Translations under genes and position numbers: made by a program | Shown: in pieces, positions 60,385 to 64,000 of the stretch | Layout: each line of letters begins with the position of its first letter | How positions within the stretch are numbered: the first letter of the stretch is position 1 | DNA from: Roseospira visakhapatnamensis | GTDB lineage: Bacteria; Pseudomonadota; Alphaproteobacteria; Rhodospirillales; Rhodospirillaceae | Length of the DNA: 64,000 nt | Assembly: GCF_014197915.1 (NCBI RefSeq) | Contig: NZ_JACIGK010000001.1 | Coordinates: 124,001 to 188,000, forward strand | Reading direction: 5' to 3' | Notes under the pieces: model-generated | Databases searched by the model: none | The model's input: only the letters and a program-made list of their open reading frames with translations | What the model was told of the DNA's origin: nothing

Positions 60385-60993
60385 TCAGGCCGGCGGCAGG
60401 GGACGGCGGCCCAGCAGCGGCGCCGGGATGAACCCGGGAATGCGGCGGCGATAGTCGGCGTAGGCGCCGCCGTAGAGGGCCAGCAGGCGCCGTTCCTCGA
60501 CGCGGGATCCGATCAGGAAGTACAGCGAGCCCCACAGCGCCGTGGCCAGCCCGAGGGGGCTCTGGGCCAGGCCCCAGAACAGCATGAGGCCGGCGGCGTA
60601 GAACGGATGGCGCAGGAAGCGGTGCGGCCCGTCCAGGCGCAGGGGCTCGCTCTCGGGCGCGTCGGGGTCGCGGATCTGCCGCAGGCCGGCCAGGCGGCCC
60701 ATGTCATAGAAGCGCGACGCCCAGGCCAGCAGCAGCAGCCCGGCGAGGGCCAGGACACCTTGGGCCGCCGTCAACGGCCAGGGCGGGGCGAACGGTGGCC
60801 GATCCCCCAGCAGCCAGACCCCCCCGGCGACCACGACGGCGAGATGGACGGCGGCCATGGCGTTGTAGGTCAGGCGATACCACCGTCCCAGCGCCGCCAT
60901 CCGGGCCTTCATGGCACGGCCGGCGAACAGCGAGTGCCCGAGGCCGAAACTGGCCCAGAGGGCGGCATAGGCAAGGTGGGGTACCCAGTCCAT
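60385..60993 (-). CDS. NnrU/isoprenylcysteine methyltransferase-like membrane protein
   Basis: 202 residues, about five hydrophobic helices. The C-terminal half has the conserved GPHRFLRHPFYAAGLMLFWG segment and RVEERRLLALYGGAYADYRRRIPGF, which define the SAM-binding region of the ICMT/PEMT/NnrU group of membrane methyltransferases. NnrU in denitrifiers is of unknown precise function; methylation substrate cannot be assigned. It reads on the minus strand 50 bases after the CULT-domain gene and could share its transcript. Confidence 0.8.
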   Translation of the reverse strand: MDWVPHLAYAALWASFGLGHSLFAGRAMKARMAALGRWYRLTYNAMAAVHLAVVVAGGVWLLGDRPPFAPPWPLTAAQGVLALAGLLLLAWASRFYDMGRLAGLRQIRDPDAPESEPLRLDGPHRFLRHPFYAAGLMLFWGLAQSPLGLATALWGSLYFLIGSRVEERRLLALYGGAYADYRRRIPGFIPAPLLGRRPLPPA

Positions 60994-61043: not shown

Positions 61044-61529
61044 TCACGCCGATGGCGTGGAGGGCGAGTCTCCGGCGCCCTCGACCAGCCGGTCCAGCAC
61101 CAGTCCGTGGAAGACCGGTGGCCGCGCCGGCGCGCCGGGCGCGCTCGGCTCGGCCAGGAACAGCCAGCCCAGGTGGCAGCCGCAGCCCGCGCAGGCGCTC
61201 ACCATCCAGGCGTGGCCGGGGAACCAGCTGAACGCCGTGCTGCGCGGGCCGAAGGGACGCACACCCGGCGCCTCGACGAAGCAGCCGATCCGGAACACCA
61301 GGCCGGCCGGATTGAAGACGGTGTGCTCGTGGGCGTCGCGCACGCGGATGGCCCAGGCCCGGCGGGTGATCGGTGCGCCGCAGGCTCGGCAGCGGATCAT
61401 CGCCCCGGGACGCGGCGCCTCGGCGGGGAGTCGTCGCGGCTGCGGCCCCGGCCGCCCCGCCGGCCCGCCGGGCTCGCGTGGGCGCGGGCGGGCGGAAGCC
61501 CCGGGGCCTGGCGACGCGAGCCCCGCCAT
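61044..61529 (-). CDS. CULT-domain protein (cereblon thalidomide-binding-domain homologue)
   Basis: 161 residues. After a Pro/Arg-rich lead (1-43) comes a CULT domain (about 45-125 plus a C-terminal strand). Zinc ligands C47-x-x-C50 (CRACG) and C113-x-x-C116 (CAGCG); DAHEHTVFNPAGLVFRIGCF; the aromatic cage W102 (FSWF), W108 and W122 (HLGWLF). From memory this follows the single-domain bacterial cereblon homologue of Magnetospirillum (MsCI4), including the final FHGLVLDRLVEG. Where MsCI4 has a Tyr after the last cage Trp, this protein has Phe124. The domain binds cyclic imides and uracil-like ligands; its bacterial role is unknown. It starts four bases after the HIT stop, with AAGGA upstream; ATG at 61400 would yield the bare domain. 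Confidence 0.85.
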   Translation of the reverse strand: MAGLASPGPGASARPRPREPGGPAGRPGPQPRRLPAEAPRPGAMIRCRACGAPITRRAWAIRVRDAHEHTVFNPAGLVFRIGCFVEAPGVRPFGPRSTAFSWFPGHAWMVSACAGCGCHLGWLFLAEPSAPGAPARPPVFHGLVLDRLVEGAGDSPSTPSA

Positions 61530-61533
61530 GGGG

Positions 61534-61896
61534 TCAGTCCTTGGGGACCATGCGGCCCAGGGGCCGGCCGCCGAAGACATGGATGTGCAGGTGCTCGACC
61601 TCCTGGTTGCCGTGGGGACCGATGTTGGACAGCACGCGATAGCCGTCCTCGGCCACTCCCTGCTCCCGGGCCACCACGCCCACCGCCCGCACCAGGGCGG
61701 CGATCTCGGCGTCGCTGGCGGTCTCGGCGAAGTCGGACCAGCTCACGTAGGCGCCCTTCGGGATCACCAGCACGTGGGTCGGGGTCTGCGGGTTGATGTC
61801 GTGGAAGGCAAGCGTGTGCTCGTCCTCGCGCACCTTGGAGCAGGGAATCTCGCCGCGCAGGATACGGGCGAAGACGTTGTTGGGATCGTAGGCCAT
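61534..61896 (-). CDS. HIT family hydrolase (HINT-like)
   Basis: 120 residues. The HINT branch of histidine-triad proteins, which hydrolyse adenosine phosphoramidates and related nucleotides. VFARILRGEIPCSKVREDEHTLAFHDINPQ is the N-terminal signature (residues 8-37), HVLVIPKG follows, and the catalytic triad HLHIHVFGGR (HxHxHxx) is intact with N and G residues before it. GGGAGA lies seven bases before the ATG. It stands four bases before the CULT-domain gene and 58 after a lipoprotein gene, all in one direction. Confidence 0.95.
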   Translation of the reverse strand: MAYDPNNVFARILRGEIPCSKVREDEHTLAFHDINPQTPTHVLVIPKGAYVSWSDFAETASDAEIAALVRAVGVVAREQGVAEDGYRVLSNIGPHGNQEVEHLHIHVFGGRPLGRMVPKD

Positions 61897-61954: not shown

Positions 61955-62725
61955 TCAGGGCAACCGTGGCGGCCCGTTGATGCCCTCGGGTCCCACCGAC
62001 AGACGGAACCGCACCTCCTTGTCGGCCCGCGCCCGGTCGTACATCACCGGGTTGCCGCCATGGGGCTCGTCGGCCGGGGTCCGGATCGGAATCCCGGTGC
62101 CGTCCAGGGCCCGCAGCCGCGCCGGAGCGGTCAGCGCCGCGTAGCCGGGATCCGGGTCGGCCCACGCCTGGATGCGCATCCGCCCGTCCAGACACCCCAC
62201 GGCCAGCCACCAGAACTCGTGGGAGTCGAGTCGCCGAACGGTCGGCGGCCCGCCGTCCAGGCCGTCGGCCTCCAGGGCGGCGCGCAGCCGCGCGGCGTCA
62301 CCCGGCCCGATCACCCGGCGCGCCACCCGCCCGCCCAGGGGCGCCAGCGCCAGGCCCGGCGCCGCCGGATCGACGGTCAGGCTGGCCGGCGTCGGCCCCA
62401 GCACGCGGGTCATCAGGACCAGGCTGCCGGGCGGCGGTCCCTGGGGGGCGGGGGGCGGTTCGACCAGGTCGTACACGCGCACGCGGACCATGTAGTCGGC
62501 GTTGTGCACGAGTCTTACGCGCAGGGGCGCCCCCGGGGCGCAGGTGGCGCGGATGTCGTCCCCGTTCAGAAACGAGAACCAGGTCAGCTTCCGTGTCACC
62601 GGATCGGCGATGTCGCCGCTGCTCGCGCAGCCGGCGAGCACGCCAAGAGCCACCACGGCCATCCCAAGTCTTGGGGTCACCCAGCGGGTAACCCGGCACG
62701 TCTTGTGTAAGCCCAAACGTCGCAT
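61955..62725 (-). CDS. Lipoprotein of unknown function
   Basis: 256 residues; not recognised. A basic start and a hydrophobic stretch end in LGVLAGC, a lipobox, so the mature protein should be anchored by Cys33 in the periplasm. The mature part begins with TRKLTWFSFLNGDD and contains VRVRVYDL, a Pro-rich loop (PPPAPQGPPPG) and beta-rich segments ending in EVRFRLSVGPEG. No enzyme motif is visible. It lies upstream of HIT and CULT on the same strand and may lead that transcript. Confidence 0.75.
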   Translation of the reverse strand: MRRLGLHKTCRVTRWVTPRLGMAVVALGVLAGCASSGDIADPVTRKLTWFSFLNGDDIRATCAPGAPLRVRLVHNADYMVRVRVYDLVEPPPAPQGPPPGSLVLMTRVLGPTPASLTVDPAAPGLALAPLGGRVARRVIGPGDAARLRAALEADGLDGGPPTVRRLDSHEFWWLAVGCLDGRMRIQAWADPDPGYAALTAPARLRALDGTGIPIRTPADEPHGGNPVMYDRARADKEVRFRLSVGPEGINGPPRLP

Positions 62726-63065
62726 GCCGTTCCCATCTCTTTCGGGGGAGTCCGGCGACCGGCGCCGGGACCTCTGGATCTCAAGGGACTCGAACTCTTC
62801 TATGGACAGGACCTCAGGTATTTTCTATGCTGATCCCAATTAGGCATTGAATCCGCACCAAATTCCCAGACCGCCGGTGCTCCGTGGGAGCCTCGGAGGA
62901 GGCCGGCGCGACAACCCCTCGATCGTGGCCGGCGCGTGACGCGAACCGGGCCGATACCCGGCACCGGGCCGCGTGCGCCATGTGTTTGGACGCCGCCGGG
63001 GTGTGTTCGGGCGTCGTCGCCGTTCCGGGCCGCGCGGCCCGCCATCGGACCGCAGGAGTCGCACC
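62726..63065. other. Divergent gap between the lipoprotein and the second carboxypeptidase
   Basis: 340 bases. An AT-richer patch at about 62800-62850 (TATTTTCTATGCTG) is the likely promoter zone for one or both genes; no clear hexamer pairs or repeats are visible. Confidence 0.4.
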
Positions 63066-64000
63066 GTGTTGCCGCACCCGCCTGATGCCCCTGGCCTCCC
63101 TTCCATGCTCGCCGACGGGTCCGCTCCCGCCGCGTCGCCCCGTCCTGTCGGCACGCGGGTCTGCCAACGAACGCCCGCGCGATCGCCCGGCCCGGCCCTG
63201 ATCACGGCCCGCCGCCTCATGGCGGCGCTGGGCGTCGTGCTGCTGCTGGGCCTGGTCCTGCCGGCCGCCGCCGAGGCCCGGGGCTATGCCTCGATCGTGG
63301 TGGACGCCGCCTCGGGCCGCATCGTCTCCGGGCGCCACATCGACACCCGGCTCTACCCGGCCTCGATGACCAAGATGATGACGCTCTACATGCTGTTCGA
63401 GGCCCTCGACCAGGGCAAGCTTACCATGAACTCGCGGCTGCGGGTGTCGACCCGCGCGGCCGGGCAGCCGGCCTCCAAGCTGGGGCTCCGGGCGGGCTCC
63501 ACCATCCGCGTGCGCGACGCCATCCTGGCGCTGGTCACCAAGTCGGCCAACGATGTGGCCACCGTGGTGGCCGAGGCCCTGGGCGGCACCGAAAGCCGCT
63601 TCGCCCGGATGATGACGGAGCAGGCGCACCGCCTGGGCATGAGCCGGACCACCTTCCGCAACGCCTCCGGGCTGCCCAACAGCGCGCAGAAAAGCACCGC
63701 CCGCGACATGGCGATCCTGGCGCTGTCGCTGCAAACGCACTTCCCGCGCCAGTACCGCCTGTTCTCCACCACCAGCTTCCGCCTTGGCGGCCGTACCATC
63801 GGCACCCACAATCACCTGCTGAAGCGCTATCCCGGCGCGGATGGCCTGAAGACCGGCTACATCCGCGCCTCGGGCTTCAACATCGCCTTCTCCGCGCGCC
63901 GCAACGGGCGCCGGCTGGTCGGCGTGGTGTTCGGCGGCCGCAGCGCCCGCAGCCGCGACGACCACATGGCCAAGCTGATGGACGCCGGCTTCGCCACGGT
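63066..64000 (+). CDS. D-alanyl-D-alanine carboxypeptidase, C-terminus beyond the window
   Basis: 311 codons visible. Start GTG at 63066 has AGGAG about eight bases upstream; ATG at 63105 or 63219 would shorten an unusually long lead before the signal peptide (hydrophobic stretch right after the 63219 ATG, cleavage near AEA-R). PBP5-type fold: nucleophile in YPASMTKMM, SxN in KSANDVATV, KTG in DGLKTGYIRASGFN. It trims peptidoglycan stem peptides in the periplasm, alongside the paralogue at 53653. The part after the KTG motif continues off the edge, so a SPOR or anchoring domain cannot be judged. Confidence 0.92.
   Translation, partial: MLPHPPDAPGLPSMLADGSAPAASPRPVGTRVCQRTPARSPGPALITARRLMAALGVVLLLGLVLPAAAEARGYASIVVDAASGRIVSGRHIDTRLYPASMTKMMTLYMLFEALDQGKLTMNSRLRVSTRAAGQPASKLGLRAGSTIRVRDAILALVTKSANDVATVVAEALGGTESRFARMMTEQAHRLGMSRTTFRNASGLPNSAQKSTARDMAILALSLQTHFPRQYRLFSTTSFRLGGRTIGTHNHLLKRYPGADGLKTGYIRASGFNIAFSARRNGRRLVGVVFGGRSARSRDDHMAKLMDAGFAT

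Follow-up and report, generated by a model that had tools for sequence, protein, structure and literature searches.

A survey of the genes that precede CULT domains, the thalidomide-binding domain type of cereblon, is the main new result of this work, and it speaks against reading the function of a bacterial CULT protein from a HIT gene beside it. The protein concerned is encoded in the window, a stretch of 64,000 nucleotides from Roseospira visakhapatnamensis of the order Rhodospirillales, where its gene directly follows that of a HIT-domain protein. This pairing is a habit of one genus and offers no general functional clue.

Family, fold, and cage of the window protein

The open reading frame for this protein lies at 61044-61529, as the original prediction had it, on the minus strand, which the prediction left unstated. 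It encodes 161 amino acids when read from the ATG at 61529. The conserved CULT domain takes up residues 44-161 (61044-61400, minus strand), with an alternative start at ATG 61400, and residues 1-43 (61401-61529, minus strand), a low-complexity run of Pro, Ala, Arg, and Gly, may represent either a disordered N-terminal tail or a noncoding spacer. Which of the two ATG codons is the start is uncertain, as this run is of low complexity and its GC content by codon position (0.93/0.86/0.86, versus 0.69/0.64/0.92 in the CULT domain) is not coding-like. In a structural model, residues 1-40 have a pLDDT of 62 to 76 per block and are devoid of secondary structure.

Membership in the CULT family, proposed from the sequence at the outset, is borne out. 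A phmmer search of PDB sequences places chains of MsCI4 (Magnetospirillum gryphiswaldense cereblon isoform 4, PDB 4V2Y) on top, the best match being that of the Y101F mutant, 4v32 (E = 1.8e-30; wild type, 3.2e-30), with chains named "Protein cereblon" at E values of 1.9e-10 to 1.5e-8. The Yippee-Mis18 Pfam profile, which had been proposed as a check, gave no match at E values up to 10, though sequence and fold both identify the family clearly. The AlphaFold2 model, built from 65 aligned sequences, has a mean pLDDT of 85.7 and a pTM of 0.69, and its predicted fold is the beta-tent. It overlays closely on MsCI4, with target TM scores of up to 0.96 and of 0.94 to 0.96 for many chains. Foldseek leads with MsCI4 structures (6r0q_A, E = 2.2e-12, target TM 0.95, rmsd 1.0), including the 4v32 mutant chains (target TM 0.91 to 0.94), followed by CRBN chains at E values of about 1e-9. 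The window open reading frame is a bacterial CULT-family protein, and chance similarity is excluded.

Like MsCI4, the window protein is a single CULT domain with two CxxC motifs and three cage Trp residues, and the two are 41 to 46% identical in structural alignments. They differ at the cage base, which is Phe in the window protein and the 4V32 mutant and Tyr in native MsCI4, and in the HinT-like gene that stands in front of the window CULT. Ahead of its last strands, the window protein also carries 7 residues that the 36 other rows of the alignment (A1) lack. CRBN chains are about 30% identical to it; human cereblon's thalidomide-binding domain shares its fold class and its cage of three Trp plus Phe (F402), whereas the LON domain described for mammalian cereblon (PMC4449219) is absent from the window protein.

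The two predicted zinc motifs are C47-x-x-C50 and C113-x-x-C116, and the three predicted cage Trp residues are W102, W108, and W122. By alignment, in the numbering given in PMC8900816, W102 (61224-61226, minus strand) corresponds to MsCI4 Trp79 and human Trp380, and W108 (61206-61208, minus strand) to Trp85 and Trp386. The segment W122-L123-F124 (61158-61166, minus strand) holds the third cage Trp, equivalent to Trp99 and Trp400, and the cage base, F124, equivalent to MsCI4 Tyr101 and human Phe402. F100 aligns with MsCI4 Phe77, at a place where human cereblon has His378. Among 121 distinct CULT sequences, a set that leaves out one broken (L110) and one degenerate (L111) copy, C47, C50, N73, W102, W108, C113, C116, and G121 are invariant, and Trp is found at the W122 position in 120. 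The sole exception, L075, carries Cys there.

The original prediction regarded F124 as a cage variant directly after the last cage Trp. It lies two residues after that Trp (W-L-F), and it is not a variant, since Phe is both the human state (Phe402; PMC11697593) and the common one, present in 74 of the 121 sequences against 47 with Tyr, counts that come from related sequences and do not represent independent events. As described in PMC8900816, the Y101F exchange lowers the affinity of MsCI4 and leaves binding modes unaltered, a Phe cage base is without the extra hydrogen bond of Tyr101, and Phe had to be engineered into the MsCI4 model for drug work. The window protein is one of many natural human-type versions of that model. 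Between the window CULT and its nearest relative, codon positions 1, 2, and 3 differ by 0.16, 0.13, and 0.33, and in four comparisons third positions differ about twice as much as the first and second, a pattern that fits purifying selection.

Distribution and gene neighbors of CULT

Within the order, CULT is present in 81 of 297 sampled genomes and 37 of 111 genera, one of the 81 (G082) having only a weak, degenerate copy. That copy (L111) and another in G094 (L110) are broken or strongly diverged and may reflect loss in progress. In the window's family, CULT is confined to 5 of 73 genomes and 1 of 23 genera, all within the window's genus, where 5 of 6 genomes carry it. Wider samples, each including the window's own genome, gave 4 of 385 genomes for the class and 21 of 398 for the phylum. 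Named genome contigs yielded 148 confirmed CULT loci, and the titles of the best 80 of these 148 point mostly to Rhodospirillales and Desulfobacterota-type bacteria. Plasmids gave no CULT match, and none of 7 pattern matches in viral contigs was confirmed, in a search whose query, the single window protein, reaches close relatives only. The CULT tree groups the genus as a clade (support 100/99) at the end of a long branch (0.81), with a sister that lacks support and a bootstrap that had not settled.

To survey the neighbors of CULT, we used a simple gene caller of our own with CULT forced in, so that gene calls and families are approximate, and named the families by Pfam scans of one representative each. 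The best 80 of the 148 named loci overlap those of the order; with duplicates removed, 119 distinct CULT loci had a called upstream neighbor, which was on the same strand in 91. At 72 of the 119, a same-strand neighbor lies no more than 150 nt from the start of the domain, and these 72 neighbors fall into 25 families, HIT among them. Most frequent are a CobA-HemD fusion (16 loci), SDR (7), PPIC-type peptidyl-prolyl isomerase (PPIase; 6), HIT (5), and Der/EngA (4), and no family listed in the survey is common to all clades. Because CULT follows 25 different same-strand families, the gene in front is exchangeable, and because that gene changes from clade to clade, a single neighbor such as HIT is weak functional evidence. 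From this distribution, a general ligand for CULT appears more likely than a pathway-specific one.

Several arrangements recur in particular lineages. At 21 loci, whose records bear titles such as Desulfobulbaceae, Desulfofustis, and Desulforhopalus (among them L190, L191, L193, L194, L196, L199, L201, L202, L204, L206, L207, L210, L212, L213, and L224), the CobA-HemD fusion (tetrapyrrole methylase plus uroporphyrinogen-III synthase) stands directly ahead of a same-strand CULT. In family f27 (L040, L081, L084, L101, and others), CULT often follows GatB and a GNAT acetyltransferase at a distance of one to three genes and is itself followed by a small Rdx-family protein; at three loci of its genus g45, genes that by eye resemble pyrB, pyrC, and plsY occupy positions -3, -2, and -1. 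The PPIC-type PPIase family precedes CULT at position -1 in 15 loci, -2 in 8, and -3 in 4 (L037, L074, and others, mainly in family f22). This neighbor family, which counts 41 members, may be heterogeneous, as 9 of them are found at +2 on the opposite strand.

The HIT-CULT pair and its surroundings

As predicted, the HIT gene (61534-61896, minus strand; 120 amino acids) is directly upstream of CULT on the same strand, its stop codon ending 4 nt before ATG 61529. The product shares with HinT of the HIT family both the PF01230 domain (E = 4.2e-24) and the His triad (HxHxHxx), here HLHIHVF. It scores 97.8 bits with the purine nucleoside phosphoramidase equivalog model (PRK10687), below the cutoff of 206, and no exact activity is assigned to it for this reason. 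Ahead of HIT is a putative lipoprotein gene (61955-62725, minus strand), with an LAGC lipobox by eye and no Pfam family. The gene after CULT (60385-60993, minus strand) had been taken for NnrU; Pfam at E values up to 10 gives only PEMT (PF04191, E = 2.8e-6) and ICMT, with no NnrU, and the NCBIfam matches, MddA (43.5 bits against a cutoff of 270) and two further methyltransferase models, all miss their cutoffs, so that a membrane methyltransferase-like (PEMT/MddA-like) protein describes it better.

HIT adjoins CULT in all five CULT-bearing genomes of the window's genus. Searched by tblastn with the window HIT, 4 of 80 CULT-bearing loci of the order have it, all in that genus; the degenerate locus of G082 (L111), with no CULT match by BLAST, falls outside the 80. 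The fifth genome with the pair is G297. Among the best 80 of the 148 named loci, HIT occurs at L219 alone; its record bears the title Rhodospira sp., and judging by identities the contig is probably that of G297. Elsewhere, HIT was found beside CULT at none of 76 further loci of the order, none of 79 further named loci among those best 80, which overlap the order loci, and none of 23 loci from outside the order, within the flanks examined, which are short for loci at contig ends and for the last group (L233 to L255) span at most about 1.5 kb per side. These counts rule out HIT as a general partner of CULT. The expectation that the HIT-CULT neighborhood would be conserved across Rhodospirillales holds within the genus and fails at the level of the order. 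HIT itself is present in 71 of 73 family genomes, including G143 of the window's genus, which has no CULT.

Around the pair, gene content varies. The window lipoprotein precedes HIT in the window and in G297 (L219); an OmpA-family gene does so in G130 (by Pfam) and G155 (by eye), and in G248 the gene ahead of the pair is YbaK-like and the one after it rho-like, as judged by eye. When 11 kb of the window was compared by blastn with 16-kb loci of G130, G155, and G248, only the HIT-CULT stretch aligned, over 754 to 770 columns. As the pair is kept in five of five genomes while its flanks differ, within the genus it may exceed chance. An in-frame CULT start lies downstream of the HIT stop at a distance of 4 nt (window and L219), 8 nt (G155), or 88 nt (G130), with a 4-nt overlap in G248. 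This spacing makes translational coupling possible, and with HIT directly upstream on the same strand coexpression is plausible, the junction itself being a low-complexity stretch whose GC pattern is not coding-like.

Two further arrangements concern these neighbors. The lipoprotein gene lies close to a gene resembling, by eye, a D-Ala-D-Ala carboxypeptidase (window 62973-63998) in the window, L219, and G143, and in G143 (L227) the two are away from HIT. G099, a member of the family without CULT, has its HIT gene (L229) behind what by eye resembles a hisH-hisA-hisF-hisE series, a place where the HinT-like gene may have resided earlier.

Candidate roles and ligands

We consider it likely that the window protein, a CULT beta-tent with three Trp and Phe, is a nonenzymatic binder of a cyclic imide or uracil-like ring, probably carried on the HIT transcript for steady expression. 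A zinc-held beta-tent would present the cage of human cereblon type, which would bind the ring without catalysis. The protein would probably be expressed from the HIT transcript, and HIT would then supply a steady level of expression and not act as a pathway partner.

MsCI4 binds thalidomide, uridine, and deoxyuridine (PMC4449219; structure titles including 4v31), and its authors write that they could give uridine binding no biological context (PMC4449219; background in PMC4287342). In eukaryotic cells, cereblon is described as binding C-terminal cyclic imides (PMC13001092). Cyclic imides at damaged C termini of proteins or peptides are a tentative first candidate for the physiological ligand, favored since damage of this kind is expected in all cells and would suit a gene that lacks a constant partner; uridine or uracil, ranked next, is a rather improbable one. 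The PCMT family is one source of cyclic imides, and its presence in 295 of the 297 order genomes makes co-occurrence with CULT uninformative.

A different possibility is that HIT and CULT work together as a two-gene module: the HinT-like protein would hydrolyze a nucleotide-linked compound, and CULT would bind the uracil-like or imide moiety of that compound or else sense what is produced. The constancy of the pair in the genus, its isolation as the only stretch aligning with three relatives (754 to 770 columns), and a CULT start between a 4-nt overlap and 8 nt after the HIT stop in four of five genomes (88 nt in the fifth) speak for such a module. Set against these are the counts of loci with HIT beside CULT outside the genus (0/76, 0/79, and 0/23, the first two sets overlapping), the spread of HinT-like genes without CULT (71 against 5 of 73 family genomes), and G143, which has HIT alone, and we regard the module as quite unlikely. 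A narrower version, limited to the genus, would have HinT and CULT coselected as a unit amid shuffled surroundings, with CULT recognizing a cyclic imide or uracil-like product that HinT, acting on aminoacyl- or acyl-nucleotides, would form or use up; this strikes us as very doubtful. For the functional link proposed originally, between the CULT ligand and a substrate of HIT, support reaches no further than the genus, and no HIT-CULT link turned up among the papers listed from an open-access library.

That the protein is a sensor or sink for uridine or uracil is also unlikely. MsCI4 binds uridine and deoxyuridine (PMC4449219), and the three g45 loci have pyrB/pyrC/plsY-like genes (by eye) ahead of CULT, but no pyrimidine genes were seen among the other commonest neighbor families, and Phe at the base of the cage cannot make the additional hydrogen bond of Tyr101 (PMC8900816). 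The patchy occurrence of CULT, in 5 of 73 genomes and a single one of 23 genera in the family, and the long branch (0.81) to a genus clade with no supported sister would also suit a recently acquired gene, nonfunctional or neutral, parked behind HIT. We find this extremely improbable, as cage and zinc residues are kept in the genus and in four comparisons differences at codon position 3 are about twice as frequent as those at the first two positions.

The CULT family was already known, and the window protein adds to it a member with a lineage-specific gene pair. If a genus-level HinT-CULT unit proved true, it would be the first metabolic context for the bacterial cereblon domain. The thalidomide pocket of cereblon is one that bacteria share.
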